Positions 3,574 to 62,092 of a stretch of DNA of 64,000 nt are shown here, one piece after another (position 1 is the first letter of the stretch; the number at the start of each line of letters is the position of its first letter). Source of the DNA: Aotearoamyces nothofagi. Its lineage: Eukaryota; Ascomycota; Leotiomycetes; Leotiales; Tympanidaceae. The stretch spans positions 687,411 to 751,410 of the forward strand of contig JADDTR010000013.1 in NCBI GenBank assembly GCA_015345905.1, given 5' to 3'. The notes under the pieces were generated by a model. The model saw only the letters and a program-made list of their open reading frames with translations, ran no database searches and was not told where the DNA came from. A program made the translations under genes and the position numbers.

Positions 3574-4311
3574 GATGGATATCTTGTTGGTGTGGATTGG
3601 GGCGGCGGAGGGGAGCCGGTGCCGGAAATGGAGGAGGAGGAGGAGGGGGAGTTGGGGTTATGCGTTATGAGGAATGCGAGGAAGGAGCGCGGAGGGAGCT
3701 GATATGGCGACACGCAGGCTGGAGAACAGGAACCATCTAATCTACACACCGAACAAAGCTCTCGATGTCTCCGTAAGCATTGGCATAACAATAGCTGACA
3801 GACCCCGCCACCAGATGATAAACCTGCGCTGCCTCCTGGTCCCGGATCTGTGGGGGACGACTTTCGCGTCGGGATGTCCTGATTCGGTGATCCGGGAGGA
3901 GAGATGAAGAGTTGGTTTAGGCGTGGCGCTGAGCGGGAAAGATTCTGGATTCTGCTCTGGGGATGTCTTGGCTGCGCTTGGTAGGAACGGGGCCGTTGAG
4001 AGAAAATGATGCCGTCGGGGTGCCGTTTTGGGCGGACTGGGAGGTGGAGGAGGATTGGGATGGAGGAGCATGACTTAGTGGCAAGGGGGGGTGTATAGAA
4101 CGGTTCGCATGGCTTTGAACATTATCTCGCAATTCCACGAATTTGAGCATCTGGAGTATTCTTGGTGATGGGACAGCCGTGTTATAGAACAATAGAATAG
4201 CAGATTCACAGGGTGATATTGCACTATACATTTAGACCACGTCTATTTCGTATGATAAGACCATATATAAAAATCCAAAAAGCCAACATCAAACCTAGCA
4301 GTCAGACATAT
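3574..4311. promoter_or_regulatory. Intergenic region upstream of DhaK, downstream of DhaL
   Basis: 738 bp between two same-strand genes. It should hold the DhaK promoter and the DhaL 3' end. Open frames on the minus strand are Pro/Ser-rich with no domain and overlap each other, so no gene is called. Confidence 0.45.
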
Positions 4312-5965
4312 TCAATCCTTCACATTAACAATCCCCTCCAACAACTTCAACAATCCAAAAGCTCCCGGATCCGGTACACCCCTCGTAGCCCCCTCGTCCA
4401 GATACGCCGATCTCCCAAGCTTGGCTTCCAGCTTCTCCGTGCCCTCGACTCCCTTGGCAGCGTCTCCCAACGCCTCCTCTGCATTCCCAGTCCTCCTATA
4501 CGTCTCCACGAACGGGATCAGCGCGTCAATACACGTCCGATCGCCGAGCCGGGCTTTTGTGTATTTTAGCAAATGCTCTTGCGCGGCGTGCAATGCGTCT
4601 GCGAATGTTGGCTCGGAAACGAGGCTTTGGGCGAGGGAGGAGAGGAATATGCAGTAGAGCGCGCCGCTAGTGCCGCCCATTGTAGATTCGAGGTCGTCGA
4701 CTAGGGCGGTGAGAACTTGAGGGAATGGAAGTAAAGAGGTCTGCCGGTTAATGAAAGATGAGATTTGCTTGGCACCGTCGCGAAGGGTGTAGCCGCAGTC
4801 GCCATCGCCGACGATTGTATCATATCCAGTGATTAGAGGCTCGTTGGTGATGAGGCTGGAGCAGCCTGCTAGAATACGACTGCGGAGTGAGGAGTCTGAG
4901 AGCTGTATCTTGGAGGTTGTGAGGGGAGTGGAATGTATGGGTTTGGCATCTGATGCTTCAGCTGTTTCTGCAGTTTTGGAAATCTGTGGTTGTGCCGAAA
5001 GGAATTCCGAGGGAATAGCGGCGATGGAGATCGCCCATCCGCGTGCAGAGTTTGAGTCTGTGAATATTGTCGATTGGCTAAGGTGAAATGGAAGATGGTG
5101 GCTCTCTATTCGAGCCAGTAAAATATCTCTCAAGAGAGAATGATACTCACCTAGATACTGTGATATTTCATGAGCGAGAAGATAGTTCTCGAGTCTCGAG
5201 AGCCCGTTAATATCAGAATAGTGGACCGAGTATACAGTTGCTTTATTATTGGGTGAAGCAGAGCCAAGTATGCTGTTTAAATCCTCGATAACAGAGTGCT
5301 GTGCGGATTTCACATCCACTGTTGCAGAGGCGTGTTGTCGAGAAGGATAGTCACCATTTTTTGAGGTCTGGAAGGATGATGATACATTTTGAACAGATCT
5401 CAAAAACAATTCGACAAGTTGTGTGGTATCTTTTAGTGATTTTCTTTATACAGTCAGCCAGAGGTAAAGTTAACAATAACGAGACTTACTTCACGTCTGG
5501 TTTGATTGCAGCGAAAAGAGACAATAGATGGTCGAATTCAAGCTTTTCAGTGACTTCCACTTGAAGGATATCCAACCCAGCTCTGGGAATTATTTCTAGC
5601 TTGTTCTCTATAGCTGTGCTCAGGACTACAACTCCATCTCTCCTTCCTAAACCGCATGATTCTAGCACATCCGCAATATCGTGAACTGTTGAGCTATTGG
5701 TCCCGGACTCTTTGACAGCAACAGCAACGACAGAGTCTTCTATTAGAAGCTTGCTGGAAAGATTACTAGCTGGAATAATTGCTGCGACGAGAACATTGTC
5801 GCTAGCTACCAACGCCTTATTGACGAGCACAACACGACCTTTCAGAGTGTTGACTTCTGTATATTTTGGATTAATCAGAGGAAATAGACGCTTCCAGTAG
5901 CTATGAGCTCCTAGCTGGAGCGTGGAACTGGAAAAAGGGAGCGTAGGCTCAACAATGACCGACAT
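4312..5965 (-). CDS. DhaL-domain protein with a long N-terminal extension
   Basis: 504 aa from three minus-strand exons: 5965-5490, 5443-5151, 5057-4312 (introns 46 and 93 bp; the first has a CTGAC branch point). The C-terminal ~190 residues are a DhaL (Dak2) ATP/ADP-binding domain: the three Mg-binding Asp lie in YDTIVGDGDCG (D336, D341, D343), followed by MGGTSGALY, DALIPF and a PDPGA motif near the C-terminus. The stretch VYSVHYSDINGLSRLENYL just before the second intron resembles the VNNLGGxSNLE segment at the end of DhaK domains. The chain therefore looks like a worn-down DhaK remnant followed by DhaL, but the first ~190 residues match nothing I know. The covalent-substrate His is not present in that part. 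The likely role is to donate phosphate from ATP to the substrate held by the neighbouring DhaK protein. DhaL identity is firm; the pairing is inference. Confidence 0.82.
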
Positions 5966-55079: not shown

Positions 55080-58000
55080 TTACCAAGTAAACATCATCAA
55101 TGCCGGGTTCAGCACCATCGGCAAGAGCAAATGACCCGTAACAATCGTCACAACAGGCCAGATGACTGTGAAGAACCGGATCTGCCAAAGTGGCGGCACG
55201 GCATATGCTCCGCACAGGAGCATGGCTATCGTGCAGATACAGAAGATGTACGAAAACTTGAAGCGCCGGAAGATGCGCGGAAGCTCAATGAAGAAGGTCG
55301 TGTTTTCCGCTTCTTTCGACGTGGCGCCCCACGACATGTCGATCGAGAACAAGTGACAGAGGAGTGCTTGTGACACATGCAGCGAGATGCCGCCCATGAA
55401 GCAGCTGATCAGGAGGATCCACTTGAAGTTTTCTATCACTATCGAGGCATTAGTATCAGTGCGAGTGTTAGGATTACAGAGAAGACGACTTACGTGATCC
55501 AAGGAGGCTTCGATTTTCCACGCGGTATCGAAGGATGGCGAGCGCAACATTTCCCGCTGCCGCGAAGACGATGATAACAGAGAAGTATACCTTGAACGAA
55601 TCGACGTAGTAGTGGTCAAGATAACCGTTCCAGATCCCCACGAGGATATAATTCAATATAACAGCAAACCAGGAGTAGCCAATGGCATAATACGTCCCGA
55701 TATAAGCTAGAATAGTCACTTTCGATCCAACAGGCATCTGTGAAGAGACAAATTTCTTGATCAACGGCGTGAAGGGCCCTCTTTTAAGCCAGTCTTTGAA
55801 GGGATAGAACATCATTTCGTTACAACCATAGGCGTACTTCTCCCAACGTGCCAGTTCGTCGTATACTGTGAGAGACACGCCTTCTTTGAATCCATCGCCA
55901 GCCCATGCAGCAAGTCGGATCAGGTAGCCATCACACTGCAGACGAAGAGCTAGATCAAAATCTTCCGAGACAGAAGTTTCGGACCAGAATTTCTCTTCGC
56001 CTTCTTCGTCAATGAATGACGTTTCTTGCACTGCAGACCAGCGGAGGACTGCATTGTGGCCGACAAAGGGAGAAACATCACCAGCTGCGACAGCAAACCG
56101 AATCGCAGTGTAGATAAGATGTGTGAAAAAACTGGTCGCTGTTAGCACCGTTCGTAATACTTTGAAAGCTATGACTCACGTTATACCGGTCTCAAAGAAC
56201 GAGGTTGTGACATTCATGACACCTGATGAGAATTGCAAGACGCCAACTCTAGGCGCCGACTCCATCTCGCTGGCCGCATCGAGTAAGCAATCAGCTGGCA
56301 CTCGAGTATCCGAATCAATGAGAAGAATATAGTCTCCAACACGAATATCGCCTTCTCCCCATGTTTGGCCTTTGTCCTCTTCGAGAACCTCATCAAAACA
56401 CGTTTGATAAGCCTGTGTTTCTGCGTAATCGTCCCAGAAGTCGTGTCGGTCGACCAGAGCTAGTTTCTGTTCCACTCTGATAGATAACCGTAGAGCGTAG
56501 TTCATGTTTGACGCCTTCTTGAATTTTCCTTTTCGGATGAACTTTGCCTCTCCTGGTCCGGGGTTTGGGTTATGGTTAGGTCGTGATACCCATCCAATGT
56601 TATGGTCCACGTAAAACTCTCGTCTTTTCCGCGCAACTTCGGGTGGAATGACTTGCATGCCGTCGTCGTTGTAAAATAGATTGACGGTGCCACCTTGTTG
56701 TCGGTATGTATCCATAGCTTCCTCAAGAGAGTTGACAGTAGGTACAATGACAGTGTCAAGGCCTTCCTTGTAGACTGGGCATTGAATTGTGATATGTGGA
56801 AGAGGGCCGTTCCTAGGATTCAATCGGATTGGACGGATTGCAGAGTAAAACTTGGAGTTTCTAGTCATGTGGCCGACTGGACCGAACATTTGAAACACGT
56901 CTTGAATTGCAGAGTGTACGAAGAACTTGCAATTTAATGTTAGTTACTGGCTTGGCTCATGGAAGTTCAAAACATACCAGTGCGATAAACATTTGTAGGG
57001 GTGTGATAATAATCAATAACAGTCGAGTGAAGTTATGATCTATTGTACTTTGGTTTGCAAGCGACTTGGCGCCCAATCCCAGTAAGATCATAGTACCAAG
57101 TAATGTTGTAGCAACCATTATACAGCTCAAAAGATTGATCGGCCGCTTCTTCTCGACAACTGCTTCGATATCAGAGCCATCATCGATGTGGTAGCTGTAA
57201 TTATCGTCATCGCCCTTTTCGCCATAGAAGGGAGCATTGAATATTTCATCGCCTGGGTGGTAGCGATTTCCGCCTTCTAACGCTTTCGTCTCTGCCATAT
57301 CAGCCTCTTCCGCCAACAAATTGATTTCACGAACAAGCCCGAAGAGTTCCGAGCGAGCACGAGCATACACTAGTTCTTGCAAGAAAGGCTTGAGATAATC
57401 GATACCGATTTGTTCCCACTCGAGGCCTTCCCATTTCAATCCATTGAAGAATATTCTTTCGTTAATGTTCCGCCCTTCTAGGTCGACACCGTCGGCAATT
57501 TCTTGGTTTGTCCTATTCCTAAATACGAACCATCCATTTGTCATGGGTATTAATTTATTTTGCGCGAGGGCTATTGCTTTTCCCTCTTGCTTCTCTGAGA
57601 GAAGGTCAAATTTGGTGATTACTCCCACTGTACGTTCGCCACTCGGGTCCGCAATCTTCGTTAACGGAATTGCCCTTTGGCTTTCTAAGTCGGTCGTAGC
57701 ATCTACCACCAGTCTACGATTGTCAGATCATGCAATTAAGTGCAAGGGGGCATGCATACATTATAATATTATGAGAGTCCTTCAGGTAATCTCCTGCTAA
57801 GGTGTTTGCCAACTTGATGTCTTTCTGGGATTGATGTGTTGCCGGTGCTGTGTCGTCAAGTTAATATCGGTTTATTATTCCCGGATACAGATGTTCTTAC
57901 ACGAGTGAAGTCCAGGGAGATCAACCACACAGATATCTTCATATTCGGGGCCTGAAACCTCGATCCTGAGTATATCACCGGAAAATCCAGCATATGATAG

Positions 58001-58974
58001 CAACATATTTCTATCCATCTGTTGAAGAAACTAGAATAAGATCAGTACCACGATCTCCGTATTGATGTATGACAGACATACCTTGTCAAATATCTTTGGG
58101 AAATCAACTGTGTCGAATGTTTCCTTGCTTAAAAAGTTTGTTGATTCGATCACGACTTTGGACATTATAAGATCTTCGCCCAAAGAAGTCTTCGAAATTC
58201 TGCTAGCCTTTACTGAAGGGAATTCATCTGGAGAATTCCGAAGGACAACCTCAGTCGCGAAGCGAGTACAGCCTTTGTCGGCGATAGGAAACGACAATCC
58301 TGTCAGCGAGTTCAGCACTGATGACTTGCCGCTCGATTGATTTCCAACGACGACAATCTGTTGAAACTTCATTAGTGACATGTCTAAAGCAGAAGAGACT
58401 ACGCCACGGAACTGCTCACTTTTGGAGGCGCAACATTTTCACTGAGATGTCCAATATCTGTTAGAGCTCTTTGGGTATCTGAAACAACACTTCCTAATCT
58501 CTGGTGGGCATCTGCAACACTTCCTAATCTCTGGTGTATAGAAGTAATACTGTCCCCTCTGTTACTGTCCCCTCTGTGTTGCACAGAGGCAGTACTACCT
58601 TGCCGTTGAGGAATGGAAGCAAAGCTATTACTCCATATTGGAAACTGACTGCTTAAATCTTCTTCGCCATCGTGGGATGGGGTTGATCCGGTACTATTGT
58701 GTCTAGTATCTAATGGCCCAATGCTCATGTTCCTTTCATCGTCTACTTTTGGCGCGTCGGCAACGGCGGATGCTGTGCTGCCACTTTTAACCAAAGAGGA
58801 TTCCGGCTCTGCGGTGTTATAGTCGCTTGGCCAAACATTCGTATTCCGTGCGTGGAGGTGAGATTGGTTGGGTGGGTGAGGGACATACGAAGTAATAGGT
58901 AGCAATTGATTTTCGGGTCTTGCAGAGGTCCTTGTCGCCGTCGGCAATGGCCGAGTTATTTGATCGGACGACAT
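55080..58974 (-). CDS. Dynamin-type GTPase fused to a GT2 membrane glycosyltransferase
   Basis: Predicted 1178 aa from eight minus-strand exons: 58974-58420, 58366-58082, 58030-57901, 57847-57760, 57713-56978, 56925-56180, 56131-55494, 55438-55080. The seven introns are 46-55 bp and all phases close. Residues 1-185 are Ser-rich and disordered, with a doubled HQRLGSV motif. Residues 186-485 are a dynamin GTPase head: P-loop GNQSSGKSS (193-201), GCTRFAT with T219, VVDLPG (D317), TKFD (386-389), then NRTNQEI and the helical end. Instead of the dynamin stalk come two membrane segments (about 545-567, 583-605) and a GT2 domain: QCPVYKEGLD, NDDG (684-687), DSDTR (D802, D804), SEDFD (E903, D904) and ELARW in place of QxxRW (939-943), then several C-terminal helices. 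The closest GT2 relatives I recognise are fungal surface-polysaccharide synthases. A single exon (57713-56978) carries the GTPase end and both first membrane segments, so the fusion is not a gene-prediction artefact at that junction. Function inferred: GTP-controlled polysaccharide synthesis or export at a membrane. Confidence 0.85.
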
Positions 58975-60634
58975 ATCGAGAGACCAAGGACTCGTTGTTG
59001 CATTGTATCATGTAACGGTCGTGTCCCGATGGCAAAAAGTTCTGCGGTATTTAGGATATATCCTCATACATACACTAACTAACAATGCAACGCCCATGGC
59101 ACGTCATGGTGATGGCAGCCCGATATAGGATACATGGCTTGCTTCTGGGAGTAACAGGAGCTCCGAAAAAGCAGAAGGGGGATGAAAACGGACGCACTAA
59201 AGTTGATAAGTCGTTATATACGCCCAACGGTTGTTATAGAAGACACAAGCATCACCCGATATCGTACCACGGACCTATCTAGCCTAGCAGCATAATCGAG
59301 CAAGTCCGCGGTAGAGATTAGGTGTGGCACCAAACGGTAGGCTTGTGGGTCCCGGACGAGGCGGTTGGAATGCTTCGAGCCCAACTTTATCTGTCTCTGG
59401 ATGGGGAGTCGTATAGAAGAGGAGGGGCTCTCGTCTTGACAGAATTCTTATTAGAAGACGCTGGTCTGAAAAGAAACAACAATGCTCCCTGGACCGCCGT
59501 CCTTGAGGTGCATTAGTCACAATGGTATCATCATACTCTACGGCTCTACATTCTATGCATGCCCTCCAGCTCCATCGCGTGGCGGAGATATCATGTCTCC
59601 AGCAAAGCGAACCTCGACGACCAGCCTATAAGCTCTCCAAGGTTCCGCGGCACGAAGTCCCCGATGCAAAGATGGACAGGATAACTGTACCCATATTGCA
59701 AAGGTCGCAATGGAATTGGGCAGACAGACACGCACACAGTATGTACAAGTACAATACAAAGCTGGGCGGGGCCAGCCAAGTAAGTCGGCAGTCTCGATTC
59801 TAGAGTCCAGATGGGCAAGAATGGGATGGATGCGTGGGTGACAAGAAAGCAGTTGGAGTCCATATGGATAACACGTGAGGCATCTTCGGCGAAAGGCGGA
59901 ACAAAAAGCCGAGGAATTTCTGCTATAGCTACAATGCAACATCATTAACCTCCAAACTACATGTCCAACAGAAGAGACCCGGCGGGCAATCTGGAAACTG
60001 TGCTATGCTACAGAATGTCCATATCCTCATCTCGCCCTCATTATCTTCAAAGGTTGATTTATGCCATTGTGGCGTTCACGCCTGCCGTGCCTTTTTTCCG
60101 GTGACGCCCGGAGGCGCTCTACTTTGCGCCTATATAGATAGGTATCTTAGATGATAGGGACACTACATTCCTCACTTCAAGCCACACTCTCCAACGCCCG
60201 CTCTTAATTGCAGCAGGCTGAAGGCACATCTTCGGCTGTCCGAATGCATCTTGTTTGGGCGCCAAGCACATTTTTCCTTTCAATGCTTTCATTTCCGTCC
60301 ATTTTGCAGATCGAACTATGGCATGATTTTCGCCTTCTACCTTTCCTCCGGGTTCCGGGGCACTGGAGAAGATCACCGCAGATGCCAATGTATCCATCTG
60401 GCTCAGTCTCTGGTTCTTCCCCAGCTCCAATCATAGTGAATTCTTTATCGCGGACGTTCATGTTGCTTTCTCTCTAGGTCCTCTTTCCTTATCGGAGCCT
60501 CGGTCTACACGTTTGTTGCCACTCTTGAAACCATCTGCGTCTTGCAGACAATCACTTGCTTGTTGCTGCATGTAGTGCATTGCATTGTCGACAGCGTCAG
60601 AGCTTGTCTTTCGAATCCCTCTCTATTTCTAGTC
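58975..60634. promoter_or_regulatory. Divergent region between the fusion gene and the GH16 gene
   Basis: 1.66 kb between divergent start codons. No coding signal; short frames on both strands lack domains. It should contain both promoters. The 60.5-60.63 kb part is the likely GH16 leader. A frame is open upstream of the chosen GH16 ATG (60542) but is less likely. Confidence 0.5.
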
Positions 60635-62092
60635 ATGGAGCCGACTGAACAGCAGAACACCGAGGAGAGGAGCACGTCGCCAGCAGACTTGCCAGTGTCC
60701 ACTAGAGTGCGACGTGCGACAATCGGCGCTCTCAGACAGACTATTCCCGCTTTCGAAGACGACAACGATGCTGCCCGGCCATCAACCCCAGAGATGCCGT
60801 ATCTGGGCTTGCATCCTAGTACGGCAAGCATTGTACGCCGAAGATACTTTCACTCTCGCCTGATCAAGAAGGGTGAAGTAGATAGACCTGAATTGAGAGA
60901 GAGGGAGCCGATGGAGAGGTGGATAACGATTATTCCCTGGACCGGGTTTCTCCTTGGACTTGGGATGGTTGCGGTTTTTTCATATCTTGGTGTTCACTCC
61001 GTTGTAAAACACAAATACTGCTCAGTACTCTACGATGATTTTTCTATGGGATTCAATCCAGTGGTATGGACTCAGGAAATACAAGTCGGCGGATATGGGT
61101 GAATATTGCATGCCGGAGGTTGGAGTTCCACATCGCTGACACTATGGAACAGGAATAACGAATTCGAGCAGACAACTGGCAATAACACCAATGTTTTTGT
61201 AGAGGACGGCAAACTCATTTTCAGACCGACTCTCCGCACCGAAGAGGAGCTTCTCGAAAGTGATAGCGTCGTAAATCTAACGCTGGATGGGACCTGTACA
61301 TCCACCGTCGTAGCGGACTGCCAATTCAGCAGCAATATCACTGCAGACTACATCATCCCGCCTGTATATTCAGCGCGCATCAACACGAAAAACTCAGTCT
61401 CCATCAAATACGGCAAAATCGAAATAACGGCCAAGCTGGCCAGCGGCGACTGGCTCCTGCCGCAGATCTTCATGCTGTCCGTCAACGACACCTACGGCGC
61501 TTGGCCAAAGTCTGGCGAGATAGATCTCGCGACATCTCGCGGGAACAACTACACATACAAGGCCGGCGGCAACAACGTAATGTCCAGCACACTACATTGG
61601 GGATTAAGCTCAACCCTCGACGGCTGGTGGCGCACAAACGTCAACCAAACGGGATTCCACGCGCCATTCTCCGATTCCTTCCACACATTTGGACTGGAGT
61701 GGAGCGAGAAATACCTGTTCACATACCTTGATACACAAATTGCTCAGGTCCTGTACACGCCATTCAACCAGTTCCAATACACACGGGGTGATTTCGGCAT
61801 GGTGGACGACGAAGGCAACGCCCTCGTGAATCCATGGGCATCGACGGGGCTCTACCAGACGCCGTTTGACCAGGAGTTCTATCTCATCCTGGCGCTGTCT
61901 GTGGGTGGGACTAGTGGGGTGTTCGAGGACGGTGAAGGCGGGAAGGCTTGGGTTGATAGCGAGACGACGACGGCCAGATACGACTTCTTTATGGACAAGG
62001 ATGCATGGTATCCTACGTGGGAAAAGGAGGGTTCCGGGGAGATGGTGATTGACAGGGTTAGGATGTGGCAGCAATGTGATCCGGTCGCTTGA
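60635..62092 (+). CDS. Membrane-anchored GH16 protein with altered catalytic motif
   Basis: 467 aa, exons 60635-61098 and 61153-62092; the 54-bp intron has a GCTGAC branch point. A cytosolic N-terminus of ~95 residues is followed by one membrane helix (about 97-121, IIPWTGFLLGLGMVAVFSYLGV), so the GH16 domain faces outside (type II). Family marks: WTQEIQVGGYG, GNNEFEQTT, LIFRPTL, SARINTKNSVSIKYGKIEITAKL, FHTFGLEWSEKYLFTYLD, FDQEFYLILALSVGGTSG and a C-terminal WPTWEKEGSGEMVIDRVRMWQQ-like end. GH16 enzymes need ExDxxE: nucleophile Glu, then acid/base Glu. Here the motif reads GEIDLATSRG: E277 and D279 are kept, but residue 282, the expected acid/base Glu, is Thr (codon ACA). Insect and fungal glucan-binding relatives that lost catalytic Glu act as lectins, so this may bind beta-1,3-glucan rather than cut it. 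Confidence 0.9.

Follow-up and report, generated by a model that had tools for sequence, protein, structure and literature searches.

The 64,000-nucleotide window analysed here (positions 687,411 to 751,410 of contig JADDTR010000013.1, referred to as C13) comes from the leotiomycete Aotearoamyces nothofagi, whose genome was examined as an assembly of 25.5 Mb in 55 contigs. On the reverse strand, it encodes a protein in which a GTPase head of the Mx/dynamin type is followed, in one open chain, by a multi-pass membrane GT2 polysaccharide synthase, and a gene for a membrane-anchored GH16-like protein lies head-to-head with it. The fusion gene is composed of eight exons encoding 1,175 residues plus stop, all of which join in frame across GT..AG introns in the splice model, thus bearing out the original prediction of a single open gene combining a GTPase head with a GT2 domain. 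Profile searches with Pfam, proposed as a check at the time, detected both domains in the expected order, with Dynamin_N at residues 186-384 (94.2 bits, cut-off 27) followed by Glyco_trans_2_3 (PF13632) at residues 794-1007 (169.2 bits, cut-off 27). The junction between the two halves lies within one open exon (57713-56978), which had been said to hold both the C-terminal part of the GTPase and the membrane segments; this exon indeed encodes residues 350-595, covering the C-terminal part of the GTPase, a linker, and both hydrophobic helices except for the end of the second. The motifs reported as intact were found as well, namely G1 (GNQSSGKSS), G3 (DLPG), and G4 (TKFD) in the head and NDDG, DSD, SED, and ExxRW in the synthase. 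One residue had to be corrected, as the threonine named T219 is an alanine; the switch-I threonine is T216 within CTRFATE, which we take to correspond to dynamin T65. The features of the fusion gene are given below.

55080..58974, minus strand: dynamin-GT2 fusion gene, eight exons, 1,175 residues plus stop (splice model, Pfam, and a full-length Phlyctema homologue)
58974-58420, 58357-58082, 58030-57901, 57847-57760, 57713-56978, 56925-56180, 56131-55494, and 55438-55080, minus strand: exons of the fusion gene
58420..58974, minus strand: exon 1, Ser-rich N-terminal region, residues 1-185, poorly conserved
57248..58428, minus strand: GTPase head and beginning of the stalk, residues 183-505, spanning introns (Dynamin_N, partial Dynamin_M)
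58345-58319, 57922-57911, and 57616-57605, minus strand: motifs G1, G3, and G4, respectively
56914..57133, minus strand: predicted membrane helices 1 and 2, residues 544-562 and 581-599, spanning intron 5 (hydropathy scan)
55083..57151, minus strand: section common to standalone fungal GT2 synthases, residues 538-1175, including the PF13632 stretch (56331-55642) and the C-terminal membrane helices

Copies, relatives, and origin of the fusion

A second intact fusion gene is located on contig C16 (C16:681373-677725), with seven exons encoding 1,114 residues and the junction again inside one exon. Compared with the window protein, its product is 40.5% identical over the GTPase half and 65.5% over the GT2 half. 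Similarly, a Phlyctema protein (P0001) matches the searched part of the window protein, residues 186-1170, with 62% identity at 100% coverage, corresponding to 41.1% in the GTPase half and 73.4% in the GT2 half. Because a second intact gene of the same order is present on another contig and is joined by the matching Phlyctema protein, the fusion is far beyond chance. The N-terminal region is poorly conserved: over the alignable residues of positions 1-182, the C16 copy is 23.4% and the Phlyctema protein 39.1% identical to the window protein. A misassembly or a false join was considered and is ruled out by the intact C16 locus together with the homologues elsewhere. Duplication of a large block was likewise rejected for C13 and C16, as a comparison of open reading frames (ORFs) in the fetched stretches matched only the fusion, its GH16 neighbour, and two weak dynamin pairs, both of which connect a separate dynamin gene on C13 with the C16 GTPase.

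In the homologue search, the 7,999 candidates sharing the most words were scored and the best 120 of 3,290 matches were listed, making the spread given here a lower bound. According to precomputed Pfam domains, 16 of these 120 carry both domains. The original prediction had called for a search of other proteomes for the same order and had named a misjoined assembly without homologues as one case that would speak against it; at least 16 fusions among the best 120 were found instead. The genera among the matches listed are Phlyctema, Coniochaeta, Geosmithia, Cytospora, Ophiostoma, Sporothrix, Sarocladium, and several species of Fusarium, and they belong to two ascomycete classes, Phlyctema being a leotiomycete and Coniochaeta and Geosmithia sordariomycetes; the remaining genera are presumably Sordariomycetes too. 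The other 104 matches (696-923 residues) lack Dynamin_N by the same precomputed domains, as anticipated from the statement that fungal GT2 synthases have no GTPase. The further statement that no protein of this order had been described stands in part. No description of a dynamin-GT2 fusion was met among the titles and abstract openings listed by literature searches, the coverage of which mostly leaves out subscription journals. The order itself is not unique, as predicted copies are already numerous in public proteomes, where they bear generic names such as 'Interferon-induced GTP-binding protein Mx2'. In passages of two of the papers listed, dynamin and GT2 or glycosyltransferases appear as separate things (PMC12134995, PMC11362643).

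By precomputed Pfam domains, other unusual combinations occur among the dynamins retrieved. For example, P0154 of Paramyrothecium foliicola joins a dynamin to many repeat-type domains, its source naming the protein WD40. P0163 of Aspergillus floccosus is a dynamin with PF01794/PF08030, which we take to be a ferric-reductase-like pair.

The two halves of the fusion were placed in separate careful trees, using 45 of 123 rows for the GT2 half and 41 of 135 rows for the GTPase half. One branch splits 12 fusions from 33 standalone proteins in the GT2-half tree (support 97/99), and one branch divides 11 fusions from 30 other dynamins in the GTPase-half tree (98/94). A larger, quick GTPase tree rooted on non-fusion rows likewise gathers all fusions (16/16) in one clade (0.969). 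In a first dynamin tree with a midpoint root the fusions did not form one clade, yet any of five non-fusion roots makes them one, in agreement with the careful tree. In both halves, the window protein is nearest to Phlyctema and next to the C16 copy, with the Sordariomycete-type fusions forming the other group. As the sampled fusions form one group in each of the separate trees, a single fusion event is the simplest reading and probably the correct one. These groups apply to the listed rows, and the GTPase side has long branches.

It is extremely unlikely that gene prediction merged adjacent dynamin and GT2 genes, even if some models of the family in Fusarium resemble annotation joins. Four of these (P0018, P0027, P0035, and P0067, two of which were scanned) show an N-terminal GH128 followed by dynamin and GT2, and they probably represent neighbouring genes joined by annotation, because the GH128 part opens with a secretion-like leader and the remainder starts like P0046. 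The dynamin-GT2 junction, however, lies within a single open exon at two loci, full-length models were produced by independent annotations in other genera, and the fusions form one group in both halves.

The GTPase head and the synthase

The head of the fusion resembles the Mx/dynamin GTPases, such as human Mx1 and dynamin-1, in carrying G1, G3, and G4. It differs from them in lacking most of the stalk and in being followed by a membrane synthase, and the expected departure from the usual dynamin stalk was thus confirmed. In the window protein, Dynamin_M is matched over profile positions 2-93 of 287 with 28.2 bits, just below the cut-off of 28.5; in both the window and Phlyctema proteins, the Pfam stalk profile is matched over about its first third, and a profile scan of five other fusions gave no stalk match at E 0.001. 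In comparison, the plain dynamin P0121 matches positions 2-286 of the stalk profile and can be aligned with the window gene no further than its residue 349, whereas it aligns nearly to its end with the separate C13 dynamin gene. This dynamin-like gene, which has a stalk, lies at C13:754940-757235 (L019 about 3641-5936), ~8.6 kb away from where the window fusion starts. No GED match was obtained in the seven fusions scanned, nor in the plain dynamin P0121, so its absence says little. Because most of the dynamin stalk is missing, the sequences argue against membrane scission by the head. A dynamin relying on its stalk for wrapping membranes could not function in this form, whereas head-to-head dimerisation could remain. 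Stalk loss would thus make dimerisation or gating that depends on GTP more likely than membrane remodelling.

A motif survey covered 18 fusions, three of which are models without the P-loop region. G1 was found in 15/18, while G3, G4, and the four GT2 motifs were present in 18/18, and the P-loop lysine is kept in all 15 models that cover the P-loop. GTP binding therewith looks conserved across the fusions as far as motifs can tell, and hydrolysis may differ across the family.

Among solved structures, the heads closest by sequence are Mx1/Mx2 (best E 1.8e-24). This resemblance, along with the fast divergence of the GTPase half described below, would fit an Mx-like immune GTPase that was fused to serve as bait or sensor during conflicts with viruses or with other fungi. 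We consider such a role highly unlikely, as the heads of dynamin-1 and Vps1 score nearly equally and no conflict-related neighbours were recognised among the ORFs and domains inspected.

The GT2 half belongs to a fungal family in which the synthase (PF13632) is combined with DUF7928 (PF25550). In the standalone relative P0007, a domain scan shows that DUF7928 precedes the membrane and catalytic part common to both kinds of protein, and other standalone rows among the matches listed include PF25550 in their precomputed domains. The window protein resembles P0007 and the rows following it with 57-62% identity over the part from KKRP to the end; it differs in having the GTPase where they have DUF7928. 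The fusion retains the GT2 chain from KKRP, just ahead of the first membrane helix, through the C-terminus. Searching the genome with a standalone GT2 revealed three loci of the family, the two fusions and a DUF7928 form on contig C8, the latter being the sole PF25550 match in the genome; none is found in the window protein. Judged by sequence, the GTPase is in the place of DUF7928. The literature search returned no characterised member of, or paper on, the DUF7928-GT2 synthases.

No solved structure matched the GT2 part at a useful E-value. A single-sequence search found no solved structure at E 1, and profiles built from 32 and 16 sequences found none at E 0.01, a match at E 0.79 being taken as noise. 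The bacterial MdoH/OpgH synthases share a weak likeness in the GT-A core, as the MdoH profile matches the relatives P0001 (48.5 bits) and P0007 (40.2 bits) in a scan of these two relatives, but these scores are far below every MdoH cut-off (≥328 bits).

The GH16 partner and other neighbouring genes

Upstream of the fusion, a divergent gene encodes the GH16-like protein, which matches PF00722 with 27.7 bits (cut-off 22) and has one N-terminal hydrophobic membrane helix.

58975..60634, no strand: intergenic region of the head-to-head pair, ~1.66 kb, longest ATG-initiated ORF 130 residues
60635..62092, plus strand: membrane-anchored GH16-like protein, divergent neighbour, exons 60635-61098 and 61153-62092

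Searching the genome with the Phlyctema GH16 identified three substantial loci of this membrane-anchored subfamily, plus a weak, fragmentary match on C25. At all three GT2 loci (C13, C16, and C8), the GT2 and GH16 genes stand head-to-head, separated by ~1.7 kb on C13 and ~2.1 kb on C16; on C8, the gap between the matched parts is ~3.5 kb and holds ORFs of up to 198 residues. As all three loci, including the DUF7928 form, adjoin a GH16 gene, the pairing is probably older than the fusion. In Phlyctema, the fusion and the best GH16 match each lie on a contig with a length of 4,113,341, their linkage being read from this equal size and not from coordinates.

The catalytic motif of GH16 is ExDxxE. 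In the fusion-linked proteins, the acid/base glutamate of this motif is replaced by Thr in the window (EIDLAT), Arg on C16 (EIDIAR), and Ser in Phlyctema (EIDIAS). The glutamate is kept by 118 of 122 aligned GH16 proteins, and the four exceptions form one clade (0.994). The C8 partner, which stands outside this count, has an intact motif (EIDVAE). For the Sordariomycete-type fusions, no GH16 partner was found, and the loss is shown for the window-type branch alone. The simplest reading suggested by these sequences is that the fusion-linked GH16 is a glucan-binding protein that does not cut. Two further observations concern these proteins. P0318, a GH16 relative from a metagenomic contig of 54.8 kb, has Ile at the acid/base site and is sister to the fusion-linked GH16s. 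Towards its N-terminus, the C16 GH16 (C16:683486-684697; L036 1-1282, L017 8987-9901) contains a long series of near-identical GSRQ-type repeats, none of which occur in the window copy.

On C16, a GH128-like gene (PF11790; C16:675624-676641, L017 1125-2142) lies tail-to-tail with the fusion, ~1.1 kb past its 3' end. It is one of five GH128 loci in the genome, none of which is on C13. By identity, the GH128 parts of the Fusarium models are nearest to this C16 gene (55-63%), and the GH128 on C22 (50%) scores similarly (309 vs 282 plus 80 bits). The link of GH128 to the fusion is suggestive only. Near the window fusion, there are genes for a sugar transporter (PF00083, 52127-53821), an acyl-transferase-like protein (PF02458, 46390-47658), and a zinc dehydrogenase (PF00107, 48604-49692), and a clear link of these three to glucan synthesis was not seen.

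Possible function and its alternatives

We favour, with a probability of about 0.5, the explanation that the fusion is a single-chain membrane polysaccharide synthase in which DUF7928 has been swapped for a stalk-poor head of the Mx/dynamin type, gated in cis by GTP and working with a pseudo-GH16 partner. The predicted membrane-helix pair separating the GTPase from the GT-A domain would leave both facing the cytosol. Here, GTP binding could cause the heads to dimerise, as dynamin heads do, and thereby cluster the synthase or switch it on at the membrane. The polymer made by the synthase would be a glucan, most likely of the beta type, exported through the membrane part of the enzyme; the neighbouring membrane-anchored GH16 may capture or guide the chain outside the cell without cutting it. 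More tentatively, it could be speculated that the locus encodes a self-contained, GTP-clocked glucan secretion machine, in which cycles of head dimerisation gate synthesis or export and a dedicated pseudo-GH16 lost its acid/base residue alongside the fusion.

Several points weigh against GTP gating of a glucan synthase. The G1 glutamine is retained in 2/15 fusions, those of the window and Phlyctema, and the switch-I threonine is lost in two of the 15, being Ser in one and Pro in the other; owing to these losses, rapid dynamin-like hydrolysis is doubtful for many of the fusions. Divergence is faster in the GTPase half than in the GT2 half, with window-to-Phlyctema distances of 2.09 and 0.47 changes per site, respectively, under different models. 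In a larger, quick GT2 tree, the fusions form one clade (18/18) with a support of only 0.74. The standalone GT2 on C8 also pairs with a GH16, one with an intact motif, so the pairing itself is uninformative on the GTPase. Finally, the assignment of beta-glucan as the probable product draws on the GH16 and GH128 neighbours, which were absent from the original prediction and give the best hint, and on an MdoH match of relatives that is weak and far below the cut-offs of that family.

The loss of the G1 glutamine in most members would also suit a binding role, in which the head is a delivery or tethering device that holds synthase vesicles at the growth site and takes no part in regulating catalysis. 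This main rival, to our mind rather unlikely, has a precedent in the class V/VII chitin synthases, which are described in PMC12653383 as carrying an N-terminal myosin motor-like domain on a GT2 polysaccharide synthase, a domain said to hold vesicles in this way. Yet no membrane-binding or stalk part able to act on vesicles was recognised in Pfam scans of the fusions. The likeness to the myosin-chitin synthases, an N-terminal NTPase of a mechano-enzyme family on a GT2 synthase, is one of design only, and neither myosin head nor chitin synthase domains are among the Pfam matches of the window protein at E 0.1. A role in trafficking or extrusion, which the original prediction had offered beside clustering, remains a rival to gating. 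With the glutamine lost in 13/15 fusions and the GTPase half diverging fast, the head might instead be a relic standing in for a scaffold function of DUF7928, one that supports dimerisation by binding GTP or in a purely structural way and has no functional hydrolysis. We regard this as unlikely, as relics seldom keep such motifs as G3 and G4 in 18/18 fusions and the P-loop lysine in 15/15 covered models.

GTP control of glucan synthesis is familiar from Fks1, a beta-1,3-glucan synthase of a different family regulated in trans by Rho1-GTP, a separate small GTPase, and the fusion resembles that system in concept only. The domain order itself is already present in public predictions; what is new is the use of another NTPase with another synthase and the presence of a pseudo-hydrolase as partner. 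If GTP gating of the synthase in cis is true, the fusion would represent a second fungal route, besides the myosin-chitin synthases, of equipping a wall synthase directly with an NTPase from a mechano-enzyme family, and GTP control of glucan synthesis would become testable within one polypeptide. The fusion would also offer a first way into DUF7928, as it shows what can replace it, and would tie a GT2 family for which no characterised member was found to a partner, the membrane GH16, whose missing catalytic residue accompanies the fusion.

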